Source: Rhodothermaceae bacterium
GTDB taxonomy: Bacteria > Bacteroidota > Rhodothermia > Rhodothermales > Bin80
Assembly: GCA_009838195.1 (NCBI GenBank)
Contig: VXSC01000044.1
Location: forward strand, 62,001 to 126,000
Direction: 5' to 3'
Length of the DNA stretch: 64,000 nucleotides
A model generated the notes under the pieces. That model was not told where the DNA came from and ran no database searches. It saw nothing but the letters and a program-made list of their open reading frames with translations. The position numbers and the translations under genes were made by a program. Below, piece by piece: positions 8,334 to 40,420 of the stretch; within the stretch, counting starts at the first letter, position 1; every line of letters starts with the position of its first letter.

Positions 8334-9908
8334 ATGCGTTATTCACCAATTCTCTATGTATTTCTGTTCGTATTCATCCATACCCCCCTGCTCGTCTCCG
8401 CGCAGGTAGCACCCGCGCCTGATCGCACCGAAGGGGAAGGTCCCTTTGAACGATTGATTATTCGAGGTGCCACCGTGATTGATGGGACTGGTTCACCGCC
8501 ACGCAGCCCCATGGATATTGTGATTGAAGGAAATCAGATCGTAAGCGTCCGCAGTGTAGGGGCTCCGCGTGTCGCCATTAATGAGGAGAGGCGCCCGGAT
8601 GGAGCTACCCGCGAAATTGATGCTCACGGCAAATACGTGATGCCCGGAATCGTGGACCTTCACGCTCACACAGGCGGAATCCCTAAGACTCCTGAAGCAG
8701 AATATATCTACAAACTCTGGCTTGCTCATGGAATCACGACCGTGCGAGGGGTATCCTTCGGCGGATTCGACTGGTCATTGAAGGAGAGGGAGCGGAGTGC
8801 CCTCAATGAGATTACGGCTCCCCATATGGTCAGCTATCACCGGCCGGGCAGCGGCTGGGATCAGGGACCAGTCGCGACACCGGAAGCCGCACGCGCATGG
8901 GTACGGTTTGCCGCAGAATCCGGTGTGGATGGACTGAAGCTTGGCTCCTACCCACCGAACATTATGGCTGCTTTGCTTGATGAAGCGGCCAAGCATAACC
9001 TTGGGTCTACCGCTCATCTCGGGCAAATGGGAGTTGCTCAAATGAATGCGCTGGATGCAGCCCGGCTCGGGCTTGGTAGCATGACGCATTTCTATGGGCT
9101 CTTTGAAGCATTGTACGACCATAATGATGTCCAACCCTGGCCGGTTGATATGGACTATAATGACGAACAGATGCGTTTTGCGCAGGTCGCACGGCAGTGG
9201 TCGCTTGTGACCCCGCAGGGTGATCTCTGGAATTCCGTGATGGACGAGTTCCTCGAACTCGACTACTATATCAACCCCACGATGGCCATTTATTCTGCCG
9301 GACGCGACGTGATGCGGGCCCGGAATACAGACTGGAATGACAAATACGTACTTGGAAGCCTTCAGAAATTTTTCGATCCAAGTCGCACCGATCATGGGTC
9401 TTATTTTTTCGACTGGACGACGCACGATGAGGTTGCTTGGAAGAATTTCTATCAAGTCTGGATGCAGTTTCTGAACGAATACAAGAATCGCGGCGGGAAA
9501 GTGACCGTTGGCAGTGACAGTGGCTTTATCTATCAACTCTTCGGGTTTGGAACGATCCTCGAGCTGGAAATGCTGCAGGAGGCGGGCTTTCATCCGCTGG
9601 AAGTCGTCCGTGCAGCGACCATGCACGGAGCGATGGAAATCTATAAACCTCTCCAGAAACCCATTGAGTATGGAGTGATCGGCGCCGGTATGCGGGCAGA
9701 CCTTCTGATCGTGAGTGAAAACCCATTGGCGAATTTCAAGGTCCTTTATGGAACAGGTGCCATGAAGCTCAACGATGAGACAGGCGAGGTCGAATTCGTG
9801 GGAGGAGTAGACTATACCATCAAGGACGGAATCATCTACGATGCGAAAGCACTCCTGGAGGATGTGGCCGCTATGGTAGAGGAGCAGCGCCTCAAAAAAG
9901 CACAATAA
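8334..9908 (+). CDS. Secreted amidohydrolase-family metallohydrolase
   Basis: A 524-residue amidohydrolase-superfamily enzyme. The chosen ATG at 8334 gives a good signal peptide (residues 1-24, ending LVSAQ), so it acts outside the cytoplasm. The imidazolonepropionase/dihydroorotase-like start (IIRGATVIDGTG) is followed by the metal site DLHAHTGG (H110, H112). Further likely ligands are the Lys in DGLKLGSYPP, His in TAHLGQMG and THFYG, and Asp in VGSDSGF. The C-terminal GMRADLLIVSENP closes the composite beta-sandwich. The substrate cannot be inferred; relatives act on cyclic amides, peptides and lactones. It sits 4 bp after the NIPSNAP gene and 50 bp before a DinB-like gene. Confidence 0.88.
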   Translation: MRYSPILYVFLFVFIHTPLLVSAQVAPAPDRTEGEGPFERLIIRGATVIDGTGSPPRSPMDIVIEGNQIVSVRSVGAPRVAINEERRPDGATREIDAHGKYVMPGIVDLHAHTGGIPKTPEAEYIYKLWLAHGITTVRGVSFGGFDWSLKERERSALNEITAPHMVSYHRPGSGWDQGPVATPEAARAWVRFAAESGVDGLKLGSYPPNIMAALLDEAAKHNLGSTAHLGQMGVAQMNALDAARLGLGSMTHFYGLFEALYDHNDVQPWPVDMDYNDEQMRFAQVARQWSLVTPQGDLWNSVMDEFLELDYYINPTMAIYSAGRDVMRARNTDWNDKYVLGSLQKFFDPSRTDHGSYFFDWTTHDEVAWKNFYQVWMQFLNEYKNRGGKVTVGSDSGFIYQLFGFGTILELEMLQEAGFHPLEVVRAATMHGAMEIYKPLQKPIEYGVIGAGMRADLLIVSENPLANFKVLYGTGAMKLNDETGEVEFVGGVDYTIKDGIIYDAKALLEDVAAMVEEQRLKKAQ

Positions 9909-23007: not shown

Positions 23008-24000
23008 ATGACTAACAGTATATCCCCATTTCCAGAGGGTTGGTATTTCGTGGCCAGTCACAAGCACCTACTGAAGGAGAAGCTGATTCGAAAAACCTGG
23101 ATGGGCGAAGAAATTGTCGTTTGGTGTGATGATAAAGGTCGTGTGTGTGTGGCAGATGCATTTTGCCCACACCTGGGAGCAGATCTGGGGCCAGAATCTG
23201 GCGGCATGGTGCGTGACGGTTGTCTCGTATGCCCGTTTCATGGGTTTGAGTTTGAAGTCAGCGGTAGATGTTCCGCGACGCCGTATGCCCCGCCCCCCAA
23301 GACTGCACGGCTAAAGGTGTACGAGACGAGAGACATCAATGGAATCGTCTTTGCCTGGTGGGGGCTCGATGGACGCCCTCCACAGTGGTATCTTCCAGAG
23401 AGCCCCGAAAGTGAGGGCCGGTGGAGTGAACTGGCATTTAAGACGATTCGGTTTCCAGGTCATCCTCAAGAAACCACGGAGAATTCGGTTGATTTAGCTC
23501 ATCTGCGGTACGTGCACGGCTACGATAATGTCTATCGGTTTGAACCGCTTGCAGTGGATGGTGCTTACCTCAGGAGCAGTTTTGATTTCATACGTGCTCA
23601 GAATGTAGCTGGGGTAAAGATTCATTTTGATGTGACTGCAAAAGCGCAAATCTATGGGTTTGGATACTCAAACGTGAAGATCCACGAGAAGTCCATTGAT
23701 ATGCACATCAATTTTTATGTGCTAGCAACTCCTGTAGACGGGAAGCACATTGATTTGGTACTGGCCAGCCAGGTACAGCAGATGCGTAAACCAAAACGGG
23801 CAATTGTTGGTCTGCGATTTCTACCTCAGAATATTCGAACCGGTCTCATGAACAGATTCATCCTACTTATGCAAGAGAAGGATGTGAGGGATGATGTCTA
23901 TATCTGGCGGAATAAGCGATATATTCCGCAGCCGCGGCTATGTAAGTCGGACGGTGAAATTGGAAAATTCCGACGCTACTGCAAGCAATTTTATTCATAA
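23008..24000 (+). CDS. Rieske non-heme iron oxygenase (steroid-type)
   Basis: A 330-residue oxygenase alpha subunit. The N-terminal Rieske domain binds [2Fe-2S] through C53-P-H55 and C75-P-F-H78. The catalytic domain has the mononuclear iron site in ENSVDLAHLRYVHG: D162, H165, H170. Overall length and the short PEGWYFVA start resemble the KshA/cholesterol 7-desaturase (DAF-36/Neverland) group rather than aromatic ring dioxygenases; that subgroup call is inference. Such enzymes hydroxylate or desaturate sterol rings using electrons from a separate reductase, which is not encoded nearby. It is the first gene of a block with a GPP34-P450 fusion and a sterol-methyltransferase homologue, and a palindrome lies 30 bp upstream. 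Confidence 0.88.
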   Translation: MTNSISPFPEGWYFVASHKHLLKEKLIRKTWMGEEIVVWCDDKGRVCVADAFCPHLGADLGPESGGMVRDGCLVCPFHGFEFEVSGRCSATPYAPPPKTARLKVYETRDINGIVFAWWGLDGRPPQWYLPESPESEGRWSELAFKTIRFPGHPQETTENSVDLAHLRYVHGYDNVYRFEPLAVDGAYLRSSFDFIRAQNVAGVKIHFDVTAKAQIYGFGYSNVKIHEKSIDMHINFYVLATPVDGKHIDLVLASQVQQMRKPKRAIVGLRFLPQNIRTGLMNRFILLMQEKDVRDDVYIWRNKRYIPQPRLCKSDGEIGKFRRYCKQFYS

Positions 24001-24036
24001 TCCTAAACTGCCCTACTTGACGAGGATTCCCGCGTA

Positions 24037-24070
24037 GGTGTGTATCCCACATGATACATGAGTCCACACC
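24037..24070. other. Stem-loop between Rieske and P450 genes
   Basis: GGTGTG (24037-24042) pairs with CACACC (24065-24070), and directly inside the 5' arm TATC (24043-24046) pairs with GATA (24053-24056). No T-run follows, so this is not a clear terminator. It may be a processing or stabilising hairpin within the 214-bp intergenic stretch; function is unknown. Confidence 0.35.
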
Positions 24071-24214
24071 ACGGTATTAGGTGTGAATACGTATATTGTT
24101 GTTATAGAACCAAAGCATTTCCCTTGACCCAGCAGGAACCAATTTGAGGATGATGCTTACCTACAAAACCAGTATTTGAATAGTGTTTTCCTTAGTCTCC
24201 CCACAGAATAGATC

Positions 24215-26242
24215 ATGAGCGAAAACAACACCTCGTCTGAGATCAGTCTTGCCGAAGAATTGATCCTTCTGACATTGGATGAAAAGACTGGTTACCTGGA
24301 GATCGTGCCCGGTTGGGAGTTCTCGTGTGTTATGGCTGGAGCGATCATTGCCGATCTTGCACTTAAGGGCCGGATTGATACAGATCTGGAGTCGCTCTAC
24401 CTGATTGATGCCGCTCCGACAGGAGATAAACTGCTTGATGTTACACTCCAAGATATTGCCACGTCCAACAAAGTTCGCGATGCGCAATTTTGGATTGAGA
24501 AAAACGCAAATCGGGTTGATGACGTAGTCTCTACTTCGTTCGACCGCCTAGTAGACCGGGGAGTTCTTGTTCGCGAGTCTGGCGAATTTTTTGGCTTGGC
24601 TCGCTCGGTTTCACGATCGGGTCTCTATCCATATTTAGGTTCGTCAAGACGTGAAGCGAAGGCAAGAATTCTGGATGTGATCTTACATGACACTCTTCCA
24701 GATCCTCGGGATGCGATTCTTATCGCATTACTTCATGCGTGTGGCGGGTTCAAGATCCTGCTTGAAGAGGAAGACTACGAAGAGTCTCTAGAGAGAATCG
24801 AATTGGTATCCAAGCTAGATCTTCTGGGACGAACGGTCGCTACAGCAGTGCAGAATAGTGCTGTCCAACCTAGGCGAAAAGCCCCGAAAACCAAACCTAT
24901 TCCAAAAATTGGATTCCTTGAAATCTTTAAGCACCGAGACTTTCTCAGGGGATATATTCCGCGGGGGCTGCATCGGCTTCATTCTCAACATGGTTCGGTA
25001 ATTAAACTACCGTATAAGATGCAGGGGTTTCCCACGTACCTTATGACGGGAGCAGAAGCAAACCATTGGATCAACAAAAACGGTCGATTTTATTTTCGCT
25101 CGAAGGAATATATCAAAGACTTTGAAAACGCATTTGGTTCTACAAGAACTCTACCGGGCTTGGACGGTGCTGACCATTATAGGATGCGCAAGGGCTTGAA
25201 GGGGGTCTATTCTCGTTCTGCGATTGGATGTAGGCTGCCAGAAATGTACTATCACAGCAGGAGATCCATGAGCAAATGGAAGGAAGGAGATGAGTTGCCC
25301 GTCATGGATACACTGAGATCGTACATGAGTGATCAGGTCTCACATTTGGTCTACAATGTGGACTGTTCACATTTCTCAGACGAACTGCTGGATTTTCAGC
25401 ATCGTGCTTTGATCGTGCACACCATGAATGCATTCCCCAAATTCATGATCAAAACGCGAAAAATGAAGCGCTATAGAAAGCGTGTGGCTGAATTTCAGGA
25501 GATGATCATTTCATCTCACACTCCTGGGCAGCGTAAAGGCCAACCAATGGATATTGCCGATGGGTATCTGGAACTTCACAAGAATGATCCTCAGTTTGTG
25601 TCAGAAACAGATTTGACCTTCTCGTTTGTTGCAGGCATGGTTGCAAGCATTTATCTGGGTTCGGGGATTTCACTCGCACTCTACTGCATGATTCGAAACC
25701 CGGAAATCCACGATGCCATTTACCAGGAAGCGGAGAAGCTTTTTGGGAACGGACGAACGCCCGAAGATCAAGATTTCTGTCCCAGAAACACGGACATAAC
25801 TCTACGTCTCATGATGGAGGCTACTCGCATGTATCCCGTGATTCCATGGCAGGTGAGAGCCGTTGTGAATCGGTGCGTTTTTGACGGATATGAAATACCC
25901 TCGAGGTCACGAGTTCTGATCGGTCATACCGCAACTCATTACAACAGTGATTATTTCAAGGATCCCTACAAGTTCGATATAGACCGCTATTTACCCGAGC
26001 GATCAGAGCATACACAGCCTGGTGCCTACATGCCATATGGTTTGGGTACACACACCTGTCTTGGACGCCGTTATACGGACCTTCAGATTGCCGTAAACCT
26101 CATGCTCATTGCCTACCACTTTAAACTGGAGATTCTACCCAAAGAGGGGGAAATCAAAATCAATCCGCTTCCGAACTGTCATCCCCGAAAATACCTCAAG
26201 TTTCGTGTCGCCGAAATCAGAAACCCGATTCCCACCGCATGA
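24215..26242 (+). CDS. GPP34 domain-cytochrome P450 fusion protein
   Basis: A 675-residue two-domain protein. Residues about 8-215 match the GPP34/GOLPH3 fold (LAEELILLTLDEKTGYLEI, AGAIIADLALKGRI, DPRDAILIALLHACGGF). In eukaryotes that family binds phosphatidylinositol-4-phosphate on Golgi membranes, so membrane or lipid binding is plausible here. A basic linker (PRRKAPKTKP) leads to a P450 domain (about 225-670) with ExxR at E535-R538 and the heme loop YGLGTHTCLG, proximal ligand C615. The I-helix A473-G-M-V-A-S478 lacks the usual acid and threonine, which suggests chemistry other than classic monooxygenation, or an unusual proton path. There is no transmembrane anchor or reductase domain. 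Its 3' end is duplicated in decayed form at 32665. Substrate unknown; sterol-like by context. Confidence 0.9.
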   Translation: MSENNTSSEISLAEELILLTLDEKTGYLEIVPGWEFSCVMAGAIIADLALKGRIDTDLESLYLIDAAPTGDKLLDVTLQDIATSNKVRDAQFWIEKNANRVDDVVSTSFDRLVDRGVLVRESGEFFGLARSVSRSGLYPYLGSSRREAKARILDVILHDTLPDPRDAILIALLHACGGFKILLEEEDYEESLERIELVSKLDLLGRTVATAVQNSAVQPRRKAPKTKPIPKIGFLEIFKHRDFLRGYIPRGLHRLHSQHGSVIKLPYKMQGFPTYLMTGAEANHWINKNGRFYFRSKEYIKDFENAFGSTRTLPGLDGADHYRMRKGLKGVYSRSAIGCRLPEMYYHSRRSMSKWKEGDELPVMDTLRSYMSDQVSHLVYNVDCSHFSDELLDFQHRALIVHTMNAFPKFMIKTRKMKRYRKRVAEFQEMIISSHTPGQRKGQPMDIADGYLELHKNDPQFVSETDLTFSFVAGMVASIYLGSGISLALYCMIRNPEIHDAIYQEAEKLFGNGRTPEDQDFCPRNTDITLRLMMEATRMYPVIPWQVRAVVNRCVFDGYEIPSRSRVLIGHTATHYNSDYFKDPYKFDIDRYLPERSEHTQPGAYMPYGLGTHTCLGRRYTDLQIAVNLMLIAYHFKLEILPKEGEIKINPLPNCHPRKYLKFRVAEIRNPIPTA

Positions 26243-26468
26243 GAGTGTGCTGGGAGAGTATTGGTAATCTGGGTAGCCAGGATTCGCTCCATCCGCGGAA
26301 TGGTCTCCACTTACCCTACTATACCAGGGAGTATTTGAATTTTCCCTAAACTCATGGCTCACCTCATAATTTGGGTAAAAACCCCAAGTTTAAGGCATTT
26401 CCTCCGGGGACGAATGAGAACGGAAGAGATTAATCTCAGCGGGAATCTAGGCGAAGCAGAGTTCTCTA

Positions 26469-26500
26469 TTCTCCCCTCAAAAACCTGAGAGAGAGGAGAA
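26469..26500 (+). promoter_or_regulatory. Hairpin that could mask the methyltransferase ribosome site
   Basis: The methyltransferase ATG at 26504 has an unusually strong Shine-Dalgarno sequence, GAGGAG (26493-26498), unlike most genes here. TTCTCC (26469-26474) pairs exactly with GGAGAA (26495-26500). CTC (26476-26478) pairs with GAG (26491-26493), around a 12-base loop. Closing this stem would hide the ribosome site. Translational control by RNA folding is an inference from the pairing. Confidence 0.45.
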
Positions 26501-26503
26501 ACC

Positions 26504-27535
26504 ATGCCGTGGAAGCTATCGAAAAGGCTCAGGGATGCGTACCGGGAGGGCAATGTCGCCCGTCGCGTGCAAGACTTTGAAGGTTGGATGGAGCGAGCGA
26601 CGCCCGAAGCCGTTAATTCAGGCGATTACGACCACACCAAGCTGGTCAAGGACTACTACGATCTTTACAGCGAGCTAATGACATGGAGTTGGGGTGAATC
26701 CCTGCACTTCGCACCCCTCGCTCCACATGAGACCTTGGAGGATTCCAAAACCCGCCATCAACGATTGATGATCGACAAGCTGGACCTGAAGCAGGGTATG
26801 ACGGTGGTTGATGTCGGTTGTGGAATCGGTGGCCCGATGCGTCGTGTCGTTCGCGAGGCCGGTGTTCAAGTTGTTGGGATTAACAACAACACAATCCAGC
26901 TGGAAAAAGCGAAAAGATTGAATGCTGAGGCTGGGATTGATCACATGGTTGATTATTTGGCCTGCAGCTTCATGAATATGAACGGTATTGAAGACAATAC
27001 CTTTGACGGGGGTTATGCCATTGAGTCAACGTGCTATGCCCCGGATAAAAAAAGGGCGTTTGAAGAGATATTCCGCGTGCTGAAACCTGGCGCTCTGTTC
27101 TGGGGGCAGGAGATGTGTCTGACGGATAAGTTTGATCCGAATGATAGTCGGCACTGTGATCTTAAGCACGACCTCCAGCGCGACCTCGCACTAAAGGATA
27201 TCGCTACGTTCGGGGAAGTGAATCAAGCGCTTGAAGCAGTGGGGTTCCACATTATTGAAGGGATGGACCGCGAAGTATCAGGGGAAGGGACCACACCATG
27301 GTATCAGCCCATGGAGAGTCGACATGGGATGTTGGGAAACGTCTTGTTCAGGCTTCCAAAGGGCCGTAGAATGATAGTTGCAGGATCGAAGTTGGCCGAG
27401 ATGGTTGGGTTGTTTCCAAAGGGTTCCGCAGAAGTCTTCCGATCCTTGGACCAAGCCGCCGATGCCTATGTCGAAGGCGGAAAAACCGGTATCTTCACGC
27501 CGCTGTATTGTTTCTTGGCACGCAAACCCCATTAG
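26504..27535 (+). CDS. smt: Sterol C-24 methyltransferase homologue (SMT/ERG6 family)
   Basis: A 343-residue SAM-dependent methyltransferase very like fungal and plant sterol 24-C-methyltransferases. Visible family regions in order: the aromatic sterol region (residues 51-69, ending WSWGESLHF), the SAM site VVDVGCGIGGP (101-111), GINNN (125-129), YAIESTCYAP (171-180; yeast Erg6 has YAIEATCHAP), LTDKFDPND (206-214), PWYQPM (265-270) and the C-terminal sterol domain ending VEGGKTGIFTPLYCFLARKP. These go beyond a generic methyltransferase. The reaction would add methyl to a sterol side chain at C-24. Bacterial SMT homologues are known but uncommon, mostly from uncultured bacteria. No squalene epoxidase or oxidosqualene cyclase is in this window, so the sterol could be imported from a host. 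Tocopherol methyltransferases are distant relatives but lack the sterol C-terminal domain. Confidence 0.88.
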   Translation: MPWKLSKRLRDAYREGNVARRVQDFEGWMERATPEAVNSGDYDHTKLVKDYYDLYSELMTWSWGESLHFAPLAPHETLEDSKTRHQRLMIDKLDLKQGMTVVDVGCGIGGPMRRVVREAGVQVVGINNNTIQLEKAKRLNAEAGIDHMVDYLACSFMNMNGIEDNTFDGGYAIESTCYAPDKKRAFEEIFRVLKPGALFWGQEMCLTDKFDPNDSRHCDLKHDLQRDLALKDIATFGEVNQALEAVGFHIIEGMDREVSGEGTTPWYQPMESRHGMLGNVLFRLPKGRRMIVAGSKLAEMVGLFPKGSAEVFRSLDQAADAYVEGGKTGIFTPLYCFLARKPH

Positions 27536-28085: not shown

Positions 28086-29279
28086 ATGGGCAGAAGACGT
28101 AGCTTTTTGGTTGCCGGTATTACCCTTGTCGGGTGTGTGGCTATTGCCGCTACTCTCATCGCTCGAAGACCTGAAACTGCCCGCCAGGCTGTTCCCCCAC
28201 GTGCCCCGTTTGTAACTACCGATTCCGTTACGAGTGGAGAGGGACCAATCCCGATATATGGCGGAGGTACTGTACGCCCATATGCAGAAGTGAATGTGAC
28301 AGCGGAAATTTCCGGCAGAATCGTGTGGGTGAATCCTGTCTTCCAAAGTGGAGGACTAGTGTCCTCAGGTGAGATTCTATTTCGAATTGATGATGCAGAT
28401 TACTTGGGTAGAGTAGACAGGGCACACGCCAATGTAGCCGCTCAAGAACTTGAGTTAATGCGTGTGAAGGAAGAATCCAGTATTGCGAAGACACAGTTCG
28501 AGAGGTGGGAAAATGAGGGGAATACTGAACAACCCAGCCCCTTAGCGTTGTGGGAACCCCAACTAGCAGCTGCTCAGGCCGCGCTGAACAGGGACCAGGC
28601 TGAGCTCGTCGAAGCCGAATTGCATCTTTCCAGAGTCGCCATTAAAAGTCCCTTTACGGCCGCGGTTTTGAGCGAGTCTGTTACAGTAGGACAGTTCGTG
28701 GCACCAGGCCAAAATGTTGGACGCATATATAGTATTGATACGGTTGAGGTAGTGGTACCACTTCCAGACGAAAGTGCGGCACTGATTCCTGGACTCTGGG
28801 GATTGAGACCAAGCGCCCAAAACAAACGGGCTTCCGCTCGTGTAATCGCAAAGTATGGCGAACGGCATTATTTGTGGACGGGTTATGTCGATCGTGCGGA
28901 AGCGGCGCTGAAAAAGCAGACACGCACAATTGAAGTGGTCATTCGTGTACCCAATCCGTTCACAGCTGGATCAGACCTGAACACGGAAGACTTCACGCAG
29001 TCGAACAGCATCCCACCTCTTCTGATCGGTAAGTTTGTGAACGTCGAAATTGACGGAGCAATTCCAGACCAGTATTTCAGGGTACGGCGATCAGCTCTCA
29101 AACCGGATGCTGAGGTATGGGTTGTGCGCAACGATGTACTGAACCGCGTTCCTGTACAAGTGCTGCAGCGCTCAGAGGATGAGGTTTTTCTTATTGGATC
29201 CCTTGAGGCAGGACAACAAGTTGTTGTGAGTGGAATCCAAGCAGCCATTGATGGGATGGCAGTACGGACCCAATTATAA
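28086..29279 (+). CDS. RND efflux periplasmic adaptor (membrane fusion protein)
   Basis: A 397-residue HlyD/AcrA-type adaptor that bridges an inner-membrane RND pump to an outer-membrane channel. The N terminus has basic residues and a hydrophobic segment (residues 6-26) that anchors or exports it. The lipoyl-like domain starts at GGGTVRPYAEVNVTAEISGRI and returns as LSRVAIKSPFTAAVLSESVTVGQFV, flanking a helical hairpin (AHANVAAQELELMRVKEE to LNRDQAELVEAELH). The beta-barrel and membrane-proximal domains follow. The pump gene is 172 bp downstream; no TolC-type gene is in the window. Its location just after the oxygenase/methyltransferase block makes export of that product one option. Confidence 0.88.
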   Translation: MGRRRSFLVAGITLVGCVAIAATLIARRPETARQAVPPRAPFVTTDSVTSGEGPIPIYGGGTVRPYAEVNVTAEISGRIVWVNPVFQSGGLVSSGEILFRIDDADYLGRVDRAHANVAAQELELMRVKEESSIAKTQFERWENEGNTEQPSPLALWEPQLAAAQAALNRDQAELVEAELHLSRVAIKSPFTAAVLSESVTVGQFVAPGQNVGRIYSIDTVEVVVPLPDESAALIPGLWGLRPSAQNKRASARVIAKYGERHYLWTGYVDRAEAALKKQTRTIEVVIRVPNPFTAGSDLNTEDFTQSNSIPPLLIGKFVNVEIDGAIPDQYFRVRRSALKPDAEVWVVRNDVLNRVPVQVLQRSEDEVFLIGSLEAGQQVVVSGIQAAIDGMAVRTQL

Positions 29280-29451: not shown

Positions 29452-32400
29452 ATGAATCAGGAGGGCCCCTATTCGGGTGAGCCGGCAGGGCCAATCGCCT
29501 ATATGGCGAGTAATCGGATTGCCCCCAATTTGTTAATGTTTGGCATTATCGCCTTGGGCCTTGTATCACTTGGGGGTCTGGAGCGGGAAGGCTGGCCGGT
29601 AGTCCCCTTCAATATGATTGAAGTTTTCATGGCCTATCCTGGGGCTACGCCAGAAGAGATTGAAGAATCCATCATAGTAAAGATTGAAGAGCGAATTGAG
29701 ACACTGGAGGATGTCAAGGCAATCAGATCCCTAGCCGCTCCCGGGCTGGCATCCGTCAGAATTCAGTGGCGAACCGGCACGAATCTCAGCGAAGCGATGG
29801 ACGAGGTGCAGGCTGCTGTCGGACAAATTCAGTCTTTTCCGGCCACAGCCGAGCGCCCCCAGTTTTGGGAAATGGACAGCCGTACCAGTGTGATTCGACT
29901 GATGCTTTTCGGTGATGCCACCGAACGCGCGCTGAAAGAACTTGCCTATCAAGTCAGAAATGAATTAAAAACTTTGCCTAGCGTATCCCTCGTCGAAGTC
30001 AGCGGCACGAGGGATTATGAGATCTCTATTGAGGTACCACTTGCTACATTGCGCGCGCTCGGATTGACGCTGGAGGACATTGCCTACGCTGTCCGCCAGA
30101 GCTCACTCAATCTTTCTGCCGGGAGCATTGACACAAGGGAGTCCGAGGTCCGGGTGCGCACTATTGGCCAGAATTACAATCAACTTGATTTTGAGGAAAT
30201 CGCCATTGTTGCTCAAAACGACGGTGCGATTGTGCGTCTCAGAGATATTGCAACGATTCGGGACGGATTCCAGGAAAACAATATGATTGTTCGCCATCAG
30301 GGCACGCCGGCAGTTTTCGTGGAAGTCTATCGAGGAGAAGATGAGAATGTTAAAACGATTTCGGACACAGTCAATGAGCACGTACGGGATGTGATCCTGC
30401 CTTCACTTCCCGATGGTATTGGGATTACTGTATGGAACGATGATTCTCCTGTCTATGCAGAGCGTGCAGGTCTTTTGGTTCGGAATGGTATTCTGGGCTT
30501 CATCTTAGTTTTCATCGCCTTGGCCCTTTTTCTTGAGATCCGGCTTGCAATATGGGTTATTTTCGGTCTGGTCACCTCCGGTGTAGGTGCATTGTCGGTC
30601 ATGCTGTGGCTTGATCTTCCACTCAACGCCCAGTCACTTTTCGCATTCCTCCTGGCAATCGGTATTATTGTGGACGACGCCATTGTCGTAGCCGAGAGAA
30701 TCTATTCTCAGCGCATGAAAGGTCTTCCTGGACCGGTCGCTGCGATCCGGGGAACACGAAGAATCAAGACAGCACTAACCTTCGCAGTCCTCACCTCGAT
30801 AGCGGCGTTTACTCCTCTGCTCTTCATTCCGGGTGGTGTTGGAGAGGTATGGTTCGCATTGCCGGCGATTGTTATTGGTATGCTGGTGATTTCTCTGATT
30901 GAAGCACTTTTCATTCTACCTGCGCATCTGTCCCACCTGCCGGGTCCGGAATGGACGCCATCCAATTTTGCAGATAAATTCCTTTTTCGTATTCGAACAT
31001 CCGTAGATCAAGGGCTGACCAGGTTCCTTAAGGGCCCCTTGAATCGCGCCCTCCGCTTTGCTACGGATTATCCCGCAATTATTATTTCGGGAACCCTCGG
31101 TTTGTTTGTACTCTGTGTGTCGCTAATTCCGGCAGGCGTGGTTCCGACAACACTTATCGGCGTAGTCGAGGGTGATTTTGTCACTGCTACGCTTGAAATG
31201 CCAGAGGGAACGCCCGAAGAGAGAACTCTTGAAGTTGCAATGGAACTGGAGGCTGCAGGCAGACGCGTGATTGAACGTTTGGATCAGGAAGGGCCGGAGG
31301 GCGCCCCTTCACTGCTGCAGGGGACACTCATCGTGGTAGGTCAAGGCCCTCGTGTAGAAGGAGGAGGACTTGATTCATCTCCTACCATGAATCCCCAGTC
31401 CCATATTGCCGGTATTGAAATCAGGTTACTGAGTGCCCAACAACGGGATATGTCCACCATTACAATTATGCAGGCTTGGCGGGAAGAGGTGGGAATCTTG
31501 CCCTATGTCCGGGGAATTGCTTTCAGTGGTGATGTCATCAACCTGGGAAATCCTGTGGAGGTTGTTCTATCTCACCCAAACTCAGAGCGTCTCATTGTTG
31601 CTGCCGATTCAGTAGTGAATAGCCTGTATAGTGTGGCCGGTGTCTTTGATATCCGCTCGGATCATGCCCCGGGGATCGGGGAGATTCAGCTGGGGTTAAG
31701 GCCTGAAGCGCGAACACTCGGCATCACCGTCGAAGATCTGGCACAACAGGTACGGTCAGCTTTTTTTGGTGTGGAGGCGGTAAGACTGCAGCGAGGCGAA
31801 GAAGAAGTCCGGGTCTATACGCGCTTGCCCGCTAGTGAGCGAGAAGCAATCACGGACGTCGAAGGATATTTGATCCAGACGCAATCAGATGGGAAGGTTC
31901 CGATCCACCAAGTTGCCACGATGACAATGGGAACATCCCCACCAGTAATTCGACGCAGAGACGGGCAACGAATTGTGACCGTGACGGCAGATGTGAATGC
32001 TGAAGTGATCTCTGGATCACAGGCCAACGAGATTCTTGAAAATAGATTCCTCCCAGATATAACCGCTTCCGAGCCGGAGTTAACCTATTCCTTTGGGGGG
32101 GAACAGCAAGAACAACTGGAGTCTCTGGGAGCACTCAACCGTGGTTTTATGCTTGCCATGCTGGCGATATACGCGTTGTTGGCGATTCCCCTGCGCTCCT
32201 ATCGTAAACCATTCCTATTGATGGCCATCGTGCCATTTGGCCTTATTGGAATTATCCTTGGTCATGTGATACTAGGCCTCCCGCTCAGCGCTGTTTCTTT
32301 CCTGGGCTTTTTCGGCCTCAGCGGGGTCATTGTGAACGATTCGTTAGTAATGATTGATTCAATCGATCGACGCATTCGAGAGGGAAGTACACCAAGACAC

Positions 32401-32649
32401 GCAATTGTCGAAGGTGCTAAGAGTCGCTTCCGTCCCATTATGCTAACGTCAGTGACTACATTTTTGGCATTTGTGCCGCTTATCCTAGAACCCGCGATTC
32501 AAGCACAGTATCTGGTCCCATTCGCGGCATCATTAGGCGTTGGTATCATGATTACAACTGCAATCCTGATGCTGCTCTTACCTGCACTGATGGCTGCTTT
32601 CTCTCGAATCAACTCCAATCGCACTGCACAGGATATGCAGAATGCCTGA
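29452..32649 (+). CDS. RND-family efflux permease (AcrB/MexB-like)
   Basis: A 1065-residue resistance-nodulation-division pump with the usual twelve membrane segments in two repeats. Visible elements: GGLEREGWPVVPFNMIEVFM (first periplasmic entry), PGATPEEIEESIIVKIEERI (porter domain), the transmembrane-4 stretch AIGIIVDDAIVVAERIYS with paired Asp for proton relay, and in the second half FFGLSGVIVNDSLVMIDSID. It works with the adaptor encoded upstream to expel hydrophobic or amphipathic compounds using proton motive force. The substrate is unknown. A degenerate copy of the 3' end of the P450 gene begins 16 bp after its stop. Confidence 0.94.
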   Translation: MNQEGPYSGEPAGPIAYMASNRIAPNLLMFGIIALGLVSLGGLEREGWPVVPFNMIEVFMAYPGATPEEIEESIIVKIEERIETLEDVKAIRSLAAPGLASVRIQWRTGTNLSEAMDEVQAAVGQIQSFPATAERPQFWEMDSRTSVIRLMLFGDATERALKELAYQVRNELKTLPSVSLVEVSGTRDYEISIEVPLATLRALGLTLEDIAYAVRQSSLNLSAGSIDTRESEVRVRTIGQNYNQLDFEEIAIVAQNDGAIVRLRDIATIRDGFQENNMIVRHQGTPAVFVEVYRGEDENVKTISDTVNEHVRDVILPSLPDGIGITVWNDDSPVYAERAGLLVRNGILGFILVFIALALFLEIRLAIWVIFGLVTSGVGALSVMLWLDLPLNAQSLFAFLLAIGIIVDDAIVVAERIYSQRMKGLPGPVAAIRGTRRIKTALTFAVLTSIAAFTPLLFIPGGVGEVWFALPAIVIGMLVISLIEALFILPAHLSHLPGPEWTPSNFADKFLFRIRTSVDQGLTRFLKGPLNRALRFATDYPAIIISGTLGLFVLCVSLIPAGVVPTTLIGVVEGDFVTATLEMPEGTPEERTLEVAMELEAAGRRVIERLDQEGPEGAPSLLQGTLIVVGQGPRVEGGGLDSSPTMNPQSHIAGIEIRLLSAQQRDMSTITIMQAWREEVGILPYVRGIAFSGDVINLGNPVEVVLSHPNSERLIVAADSVVNSLYSVAGVFDIRSDHAPGIGEIQLGLRPEARTLGITVEDLAQQVRSAFFGVEAVRLQRGEEEVRVYTRLPASEREAITDVEGYLIQTQSDGKVPIHQVATMTMGTSPPVIRRRDGQRIVTVTADVNAEVISGSQANEILENRFLPDITASEPELTYSFGGEQQEQLESLGALNRGFMLAMLAIYALLAIPLRSYRKPFLLMAIVPFGLIGIILGHVILGLPLSAVSFLGFFGLSGVIVNDSLVMIDSIDRRIREGSTPRHAIVEGAKSRFRPIMLTSVTTFLAFVPLILEPAIQAQYLVPFAASLGVGIMITTAILMLLLPALMAAFSRINSNRTAQDMQNA

Positions 32650-38014: not shown

Positions 38015-39455
38015 TCCATCCATAGACGCAGATACACCGTCGAAGCCTCCACTGCGACGTGGGGATGTTGTGGAATTGGTGATGGAGAAAATGGCAGACC
38101 GGGGAAAGTGCCTCGCATATCATAACGGTCAGGTGGTGTTTGTCCCTCATACCCTAGCAGGTGAGCGTGTGCAGGCCAAAGTGGTAAAACGGCGCAGGAA
38201 GTTTGCGGAGGCGCAGCTTCTGGCCGTGCTGCATCCTTCTCCAAACCGGGTCCAACCACGTTGTGAATATTTCGGAAGCTGCGGCGGTTGCACCCTCCAA
38301 ACTACCTCCTACACACAGCAGCTTGAGGATAAATATCAACTGGTGCGCGAGACAATGACACGCATCGCTGACCTACCAAATCTGGAGATTCACAAGCCAC
38401 TGGAATCGGCTGCAATCTTTGGTTACCGAAATAAGATGGAGTTCTCCTTCTCCCCCTACCGCTGGCTCACCAGAGAGGAGATTGATTCTGGAGAAGTATT
38501 TGATACCTCATTTGCACTCGGTCTGCATCCACCAAACGTATTCGCCAAAATCCTGGACATTCACCGATGTCATCTTCAAGGTGAACGTAGTACGGCAGTG
38601 GTCAACGGGATCCGAGTCCTTGCAAAGCAACATCATTGGAGTCCCTGGAACTGGCGGAACAAAGAGGGATTTTTACGACACCTTGTCATTCGCCAGTCTG
38701 TACATATGCCGGATTTTATGGTGAATTTAATTACATCTGAGTACGATGCGGAATGCATGTCCTGCCTTGAAGCCTACCTCAAAGAGGAGCATCCGTATGT
38801 GACCACACTGGTAAATACCATCAATTCAACACCTGCTCAGACCGCCTTTGGAGAACGAACCGAGACCATCTACGGCCCTGGGATTCTTCGAGAACGTATT
38901 GGTGACCTTACCTTTGAGATTGCGCCCGGCGCATTCTTTCAGACCAACACTCTTCAGGCAGAACAATTGGTGAACGTCGTACGCGACCTCGCTGGAGTGA
39001 CTAAAAACGAACATGTATACGACCTGTACTGTGGCACTGGAACGATCGCATTATCCCTCGCTAAACATGCCGCACATGTGACCGGTATTGAACTGATCGA
39101 AGATGCCATCCTGAACGCAAGAAGCAATGCAGCTCTGAACGGAATCAAGAACACCACCTTCATCAGTGGGGACATGCTGCGGCTCTTAAATCCAGAGCTC
39201 ATTACTGAGCATGGGAATCCTGATGTCGTCGTGCTTGATCCTCCACGAGCAGGTATGCATCCAAAGGTGGCCGTGCAGGTATCTAGGCTAAACGCTCGCA
39301 GGATTGTGTACGTGAGTTGTAATATTCAATCCCAAGCCCGTGATCTACTGATCTTATCGAAGTCGTACGATGCCATTGTTGCGCAACCTGTTGACTTATT
39401 TCCCCAAACCCATCATCTTGAGAACATCGTCCTACTTGAGAAAAAAGTATTGTGA
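38004..39455 (+). CDS. rlmD: RlmD/TrmA-family RNA (uracil-5-)-methyltransferase
   Basis: SAM-dependent m5U methyltransferase for structured RNA, 483 residues. A TRAM domain (residues about 17-75: GDVVELVMEKMADRGKCLAY) precedes a [4Fe-4S] cluster motif C-E-Y-F-G-S-C-G-G-C. The catalytic Rossmann domain has DLYCGTGTIALSLA, VVLDPPRAGMH and the nucleophile Cys in YVSCNIQSQARDL. RlmD (23S rRNA U1939) is the usual cluster-bearing member; RlmCD cannot be excluded. The ATG at 38004 overlaps the BamA-like stop by 11 bp; a TTG lies two codons earlier. The stop overlaps the next ATG as TGATG. Confidence 0.9.
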   Translation: MPSDPSIDADTPSKPPLRRGDVVELVMEKMADRGKCLAYHNGQVVFVPHTLAGERVQAKVVKRRRKFAEAQLLAVLHPSPNRVQPRCEYFGSCGGCTLQTTSYTQQLEDKYQLVRETMTRIADLPNLEIHKPLESAAIFGYRNKMEFSFSPYRWLTREEIDSGEVFDTSFALGLHPPNVFAKILDIHRCHLQGERSTAVVNGIRVLAKQHHWSPWNWRNKEGFLRHLVIRQSVHMPDFMVNLITSEYDAECMSCLEAYLKEEHPYVTTLVNTINSTPAQTAFGERTETIYGPGILRERIGDLTFEIAPGAFFQTNTLQAEQLVNVVRDLAGVTKNEHVYDLYCGTGTIALSLAKHAAHVTGIELIEDAILNARSNAALNGIKNTTFISGDMLRLLNPELITEHGNPDVVVLDPPRAGMHPKVAVQVSRLNARRIVYVSCNIQSQARDLLILSKSYDAIVAQPVDLFPQTHHLENIVLLEKKVL

Positions 39456-40420
39456 TGGGTAAGACTGCATTTGTGACGGGAGGAACTGGCTTCGTCGGCA
39501 GCCACCTGGTTGAGGCATTACTCCAGCGAGGTTACTCAGAAATTCGCTGTCTAGTCCGTTCTGAACCGAAATGGCTGACAGGGCTTGATGTCGTGCATAT
39601 ACGCGGCAGCCTCAACGATTCCACGCTGGTTGAACAAGCTCTGCAAGGGGTAGATTTTGTCTACCATTTAGGTGCAATGACACGCGCACGGACATGGGAA
39701 ATGCTGTATGAGGCCAACGTAACCTCTACGATAAACTTGATGACGGCGGCCGCTTCTGCAAAAATTCCCAAAGTATGTATTGCCAGCAGTCTGGCGGTCG
39801 TTGGTGATACCGGGGAGGTACTCGCCGATGAATCCACACCCTGCGAACCCGTTTCCATGTACGGGAGAAGTAAACTCGCCATGGAACATGCATTGGCAGA
39901 CATGGATCTGCCCATAGTCATTATCCGCCCTCCCGTTGTATATGGACCAAGGGATCGAGATCTACTGACTTTTTTTACTGCCATAAATCGTGGACTCTGT
40001 GTTGTACCCCGGCGCGACCCTGGACTGTCACTCGTGTATGTACGAGACTTGGTCCGGGGTATCATTGGGGCAGCTGAATCTCCGCGGACTACTGGCGAAA
40101 CCTACTATGTAGGAAGTCGTCGAATTATATCCTGGGGGAAACTGAAAAAATCGTCTGAGTCTGCGTTGGAGAAAAAATCACGGATGATCCAGATCCCACG
40201 CTCGCTCATCATGCCACTGGGAACCCTCAGTGAATTTGCCGGAAAGCTGTCCCGAACCTACCCGGCACTGAACCGCGAGAAGGCGCGGGAAATCCTTCAT
40301 GCGACAAAACAATGTTCATCCAAAAAGGCCAGTGAACATTTTGGGTATACTTCTCAGGTCTCATTGAACGATGGCATAAAAGAAACCATTTCGTGGTACC
40401 GGATGCAGGGGTGGATTTAA
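39455..40420 (+). CDS. NAD(P)-dependent extended short-chain dehydrogenase/epimerase
   Basis: A 321-residue extended SDR. The nucleotide site is FVTGGTGFVGSHLVEALL, the catalytic Tyr/Lys pair is YGRSKLAME, and IIRPPVVYGPRDRDLL is the typical substrate-loop start. The closest-looking groups are dihydroflavonol reductase-like and 3beta-hydroxysteroid dehydrogenase-like SDRs; nothing in the sequence fixes the substrate. The ATG at 39455 overlaps the rlmD stop (TGATG), with a GTG one codon upstream as alternative. A steroid role would be tempting given the 23-27 kb block, but the 12-kb distance gives it no support. Confidence 0.88.
   Translation: MGKTAFVTGGTGFVGSHLVEALLQRGYSEIRCLVRSEPKWLTGLDVVHIRGSLNDSTLVEQALQGVDFVYHLGAMTRARTWEMLYEANVTSTINLMTAAASAKIPKVCIASSLAVVGDTGEVLADESTPCEPVSMYGRSKLAMEHALADMDLPIVIIRPPVVYGPRDRDLLTFFTAINRGLCVVPRRDPGLSLVYVRDLVRGIIGAAESPRTTGETYYVGSRRIISWGKLKKSSESALEKKSRMIQIPRSLIMPLGTLSEFAGKLSRTYPALNREKAREILHATKQCSSKKASEHFGYTSQVSLNDGIKETISWYRMQGWI

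Follow-up and report, generated by a model that had tools for sequence, protein, structure and literature searches.

Sterol genes without sterol synthesis

What does a bacterium that should not make sterols do with a Rieske oxygenase, a cytochrome P450, and a sterol-methyltransferase (SMT) homologue encoded side by side? The three genes lie in the window, by which we mean the whole stretch of DNA analyzed, 64,000 nucleotides from a Rhodothermaceae contig. An earlier note, made from sequence alone, had claimed that they form one pathway modifying a sterol, perhaps host-derived. The genomic context reported here supports that claim; activity on a sterol is inferred. We consider it likely, with a probability of roughly 0.7, that the locus represents a horizontally shared set that oxidizes, methylates, and exports sterols derived from a host or a neighbor, with activity, substrate, and methylation site all inferred. 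What the sequences do show is the genes themselves, how they are linked and how widely they occur, that canonical active-site residues have been lost, and that the window genome has no sterol-synthesis genes. The features are as follows:

23008..24000, + strand: KshA-type Rieske non-haem iron oxygenase, 330 aa (Pfam KshA_C and Rieske domains; KshA proteins are the best solved relatives)
24215..26242, + strand: GPP34-cytochrome P450 fusion, 675 aa (GPP34 and P450 domains; model superposes on terpenoid and steroid P450s)
26504..27535, + strand: type A SMT homologue with region I rebuilt, 343 aa (Sterol_MT_C)
28086..29279, + strand: RND periplasmic adaptor (MFP; TIGR01730), linked to the set in relatives
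29452..32649, + strand: AcrB-family RND permease, candidate exporter (ACR_tran, 477 bits)

The three trio reading frames are on one strand at the coordinates listed, and together with the Pfam domains they confirm the same-strand Rieske, P450-GPP34, and methyltransferase genes originally described. The RND pair described as following the trio also held, and the adaptor exceeds the TIGR01730 cut-off by 133 bits. Intergenic gaps are about 214 bp (Rieske to P450), 261 bp (P450 to methyltransferase), and 550 bp (methyltransferase to MFP). Because the genes share a strand but are spaced, a single transcript for the cluster is not shown. Among close relatives, dN/dS is 0.08-0.16 for the Rieske, P450, and SMT genes, so all three are under purifying selection.

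The window genome (G000) is 3.0 Mb and 99% complete, and among named genomes its SMT is closest to those of Rhodothermaceae MAGs (bin80 and SB0661_bin_24). Squalene epoxidase, squalene/oxidosqualene cyclase, and ERG24 were all absent when the whole genome was searched. The organism should therefore not make sterols, and the original observation that the window has no squalene epoxidase or cyclase holds for the entire genome. Three matches to the squalene/phytoene-synthase family were found (G000:C36:222562-223434, within L174 at 8587-9555; G000:C47:153153-153938; and G000:C30:26812-27267), which makes a linear isoprenoid substrate possible. Elsewhere in the window, at 39452-40420, is an NAD-dependent epimerase/3beta-HSD-family gene sharing ~27% identity with the SdmB-like gene that relatives carry; nothing indicates that it is part of the set.

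The Rieske oxygenase and the P450-GPP34 fusion

The Rieske protein scores 62.5 bits against PF00355 and 98.6 bits against KshA_C (Pfam). The proposed ligand layout (C53/H55, C75/H78, and D162/H165/H170) held, as the ligands are complete and invariant across 20 homologues; D296 is likely to be the third iron ligand. The best solved relatives are KshA 3-ketosteroid 9alpha-hydroxylases, which have the same Rieske layout, His-His-Asp iron site, and C-terminal KshA_C domain. Unlike KshA, however, the window gene has no recognized steroid-degradation genes beside it. Identification of the protein as SdmA was rejected, with NF052579 scoring 35.6 bits against a cut-off of 600 and only the Rieske domain matched. 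The Rieske gene of the de novo sterol clusters in relatives encodes a different, VanA_C protein.

The fusion of a P450 to a GPP34 domain, also claimed in the earlier note, held on Pfam scores: GPP34 at residues 12-213 (119.7 bits) and P450 at 360-652 (131 bits). Across 54 of 54 such fusions, the haem ligand Cys615 and the ExxR motif (E535xxR538) are kept, and the acid-alcohol pair of the I-helix (Asp/Glu-Thr) is absent at any plausible register. The structural model (pLDDT 77.6) places this helix at residues 464-494. It matches taxadiene, fatty-acid, and steroid P450s in a structural search, which confirms the fold but gives no subfamily and does not fix the substrate. P450s without the acid-alcohol pair may, by inference, use peroxide, isomerize, or need help from the substrate. 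Assignment to CYP51 was rejected; the sterol clusters of relatives carry a separate P450, ~24% identical over 230 aa. Distant full-length GPP34-P450 matches (27-35% identical; loci L046-L053) occur in genomes with or without an SMT, so the fusion extends beyond this pathway.

A rebuilt methyltransferase active site

The methyltransferase has a Sterol_MT_C domain (63 bits; cut-off 21.7) and a SAM-methyltransferase domain (Pfam). It belongs to what we call type A, a clade distinct from that of the SMTs found in de novo sterol clusters; the other group, type B, is ~40% identical to the window SMT. The claim that it carries the sterol-specific regions of ERG6 was only partly borne out, with regions II-IV present and region I missing: Erg6 Y81-E-Y-G-W-G86 reads M-T-W-S-W-G in the window protein. 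In 84 of 84 type A proteins, Erg6 Y81 is replaced by Met, F89 by Leu, Y223 by Gln, and W225 by Met, and E82 is Val in 77 of the 84 and Thr in the window protein. The SAM motif GCG.GGP is invariant in type A and E195 is kept, as is H199 in 83/84, the sole exception being the window protein, which has Tyr. All 13 type B SMTs, some of them in the same genomes as type A, keep the region I signature as Y/F-E. Region I of the Erg6 reference matches the one given in PMC6997595, and type B provides an independent control.

The possibility that the methyltransferase groups with non-sterol enzymes, which would have refuted the original proposal, was checked and not borne out: it is a member of the SMT family, though in a new, separate clade. 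Its model (pLDDT 85.5) matched only class I small-molecule methyltransferases in a structural search, and no solved SMT structure was found. Such generic matches leave the substrate unsettled.

According to PMC6997595, alkylation at C-24 depends on the region I aromatics; the nematode 4-SMT lacks them and methylates 3-keto sterols at C-4. With its active site rebuilt in this way, C-24 methylation by type A is doubtful. Whether the methyl instead goes to another carbon could fall either way, as the site is inferred and there are no activity data.

It is possible, though less likely than the reading we favor, that the system is as we propose but type A is a regular C-24 SMT that alkylates the side chain of delta-24 sterols from the host, with the Rieske and P450 enzymes acting as C-7 and C-22 desaturases, much as in Capsaspora. 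SMT family membership and retention of regions II-IV, E195/H199, and Sterol_MT_C favor this alternative. Moreover, the conversion of outside cholesterol by Capsaspora relies on an SMT, a C7-desaturase of the Rieske type, and a P450 that desaturates C22 (PMC4967820), and C-24 alkylation in vitro has been shown for SMTs of other bacterial symbionts (PMC10070321). However, every type A protein has lost the aromatic residues listed above while type B keeps the signature, and the P450 is missing the usual O2-activating pair.

Spread across symbiont phyla

A scan of named genomes, mostly MAGs, yielded 425 SMT loci; locus counts below use the best 80, leaving out the remaining 345 weaker loci. All 80 are type A and 64-88% identical to the window SMT, and at least 12 phyla are represented. 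The type A sequences group tightly as a single clade with the phyla intermixed (21 label changes versus a minimum of 11), which, together with the high identity across phyla, indicates horizontal transfer. Misbinning is no explanation, since the set is carried by the chromosome-level assemblies OX638327, OX638353, and OX638325 (loci L078, L129, and L150). SMT homologues are found in 13 of 245 genomes of the class, in two genera only, and either SMT type in only 9 of 395 genomes of a phylum-wide sample.

About 70 of the 80 loci are from sponges or coral, a figure judged partly by isolate names; host origin is unverified for ~10 of the 80. The hosts indicated by name are Ircinia, Rhopaloeides, Coscinoderma, Aplysina, and the coral Porites. 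The jk18x isolate code denotes Ircinia (PMC9531527), and sponge species fitting the RHO, COS, IRC, and APA codes are named in PMC8163846; we take these prefixes to map accordingly, and SB06xx, the A. aerophoba bins, and Plut to be sponge or coral sources.

Linkage, a fourth enzyme, and exporters

Could unrelated oxidoreductases simply have come to lie by chance beside one another and beside an efflux pump? Gene order and orientation do vary by lineage, and the Rieske gene is unlinked in some Rhodothermia genomes. However, the Rieske, P450-GPP34, and SMT genes lie within ~10 kb of one another in 51/80 loci from ~10 phyla, so a lack of co-occurrence in relatives, named earlier as a possible refutation, was looked for and not found. 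Among the 44 loci of at least 19 kb, 32 have the whole trio; overall, P450-GPP34 is present in 64 of 80 loci and the Rieske gene in 56. Pairwise divergences of the three proteins correlate (rho 0.23-0.49; no more than 3 of 999 permutations gave a value this high), and across the 245 genomes of the class the Rieske and P450 genes tend to occur together (Fisher p 2e-13, without correction for phylogeny). Linkage, correlated divergence, and co-occurrence all contradict chance, which is all but excluded.

An FAD enzyme, present in 38 of 80 loci and 72-80% identical across phyla, is a fourth enzyme of the set. In the window genome, a copy 72% identical stands alone on another contig than the trio (G000:C18:142364-143728; L163 9326-10738). 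Four genomes (G239, G242, G243, and G244) have the gene order Rieske-FAD-P450, and three (G243, G244, and G145) have the Rieske, FAD, and P450 genes with the SMT missing. The enzyme has an amine-oxidase fold, its nearest solved relatives being LkcE and the putative amine oxidase 2b9w, which we take to be the Propionibacterium fatty-acid double-bond isomerase.

Transporters occur in 55/80 loci, either AcrB-type (25) or MMPL-type (30) and never both. The MMPL proteins resemble the HAE3, HpnN, BstA, and sterol-sensing-domain families. Because one transporter type or the other recurs, the suggestion that the RND pair could export the product is supported, though no activity is shown.

Is the substrate a steroid?

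Five loci, L089 and the Nitrospirota loci L080, L081, L087, and L088, have three to five genes for de novo sterol synthesis (SdmB-SdmA-ERG24-CYP51-SMO/OSC) no more than 20 kb from the set, which ties the set to steroids in some Nitrospirota symbionts. Such de novo clusters contain 3beta-HSD/SdmB-like, VanA_C Rieske/SdmA-like, ERG24, and P450 genes, an SMO-OSC fusion of ~1160 aa, and in some cases ERG2; in G136 and G240, a type B SMT lies beside the cluster. A neighboring sterol cluster is context, not proof of substrate. A steroid is nonetheless the likely substrate of the set, an inference from context with no activity shown.

The SMO-OSC fusion is present in only 8 of 50 type A genomes, the others having a hopanoid-type cyclase, fragments, or nothing. 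Within the class, type A occurs in the window genome, G133, G134, G141, and G239, all without a cyclase, and type B in several of the 13 genomes that have an SMT homologue. Two cyclase-less genomes, G239 (L172 9982-11088) and G244 (L173 8762-9868), keep a solitary ERG24-like reductase that is 65% identical to the cluster version. This reductase kept without a cyclase, along with the decoupling of the set from the cyclase, fits the use of host or neighbor sterols. As a separate observation, G138 and G139 have SMT homologues with internal stops that are apparently decaying (L012 1501-2355, L013 1501-1932, and L014 1501-2220), and both genomes keep an uninterrupted SMO-OSC cyclase.

Alternatively, the substrate could be a non-sterol isoprenoid or lipid, such as squalene, a carotenoid, a fatty acid, or a hopanoid-like compound, with the likeness to sterol families ancestral only. 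The squalene/phytoene synthase genes without a cyclase in the window genome, the nearest relatives of the FAD enzyme, the match of the SMT fold to many small-molecule methyltransferases, and the resemblance of MMPL partners to hopanoid exporters are consistent with this. However, the set adjoins de novo sterol clusters, its Rieske enzyme is KshA-type, and it is enriched, judging partly by isolate names, in sterol-rich hosts, so we regard a non-sterol substrate as unlikely.

Proposed pathway and relation to known systems

Under the favored steroid reading, the cell would take up a sterol from the host or from sterol-making neighbor symbionts, and the KshA-like Rieske enzyme would oxidize or desaturate the sterol rings. 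The P450, which its GPP34 domain probably keeps at the membrane, may carry out further oxidation or isomerization with the FAD enzyme. Type A would then add a methyl, most likely by some other route than Erg6's alkylation of the C-24 alkene; by analogy with the nematode 4-SMT, its target may be an activated carbon, for example C-4 in a 3-keto steroid. Finally, the RND pair, or MMPL in other lineages, would export the product. It is tempting to go further and posit a pathway transferred among a dozen phyla that turns host sterols into an exported steroid through methylation away from C-24 (e.g., in ring A) and unusual P450 chemistry, but we lean slightly against this full version.

How does this set compare with systems already described? 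Steroid biosynthesis clusters (CSGs) are known from Ircinia symbionts (PMC9531527). Like the present set, they occur in sponge symbionts of many phyla, have spread horizontally, and contain sterol genes, some with SMT1/ERG6; in contrast, they comprise ERG24-CYP51-OSC and make sterols de novo, whereas the window genome lacks cyclase and ERG24. Functional bacterial C-24 SMTs are also known (PMC10070321). These too are SMT homologues of sponge-associated bacteria, but they alkylate C-24, many in sdmA/sdmB clusters, while type A is a separate clade without the C-24 pocket residues; overlap with the enzymes tested in that work is not established. The combination of Rieske, P450-GPP34, type A SMT, FAD enzyme, and exporter is not described in the bearing sections of either paper, and we found no description of GPP34-P450 fusions or of the gene set in the literature searched.

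The nematode 4-SMT (STRM-1) is, like type A, an SMT relative without the region I aromatics, and it works beside the DAF-36 Rieske enzyme on scavenged cholesterol (PMC6997595), just as the window set pairs an SMT with a Rieske enzyme. It is eukaryotic, however, and the likeness to type A rests on no direct sequence comparison. The nearest functional parallel is Capsaspora, a snail symbiont that converts scavenged cholesterol to ergosterol (PMC4967820) with the same kinds of enzymes. It differs in being a eukaryote, in having an SMT assigned to C-24, and in having no described GPP34-fused P450.

Whether sponges or their bacteria make the unusual sterols of sponges is debated, and methylated steranes are used for dating the first animals. 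If our reading is true, bacteria that make no sterols of their own alter those of the host and export them, which would make the origin of sponge sterols testable enzyme by enzyme. Both the P450-GPP34 fusion and the type A methyltransferase are new enzyme targets. The full version above, with methylation away from C-24, would mean that sponge steroids and methylated sterane biomarkers have a bacterial source not recognized so far. Spread through many unrelated symbionts would suggest that bacteria living in sponges have this chemistry as a common trait.
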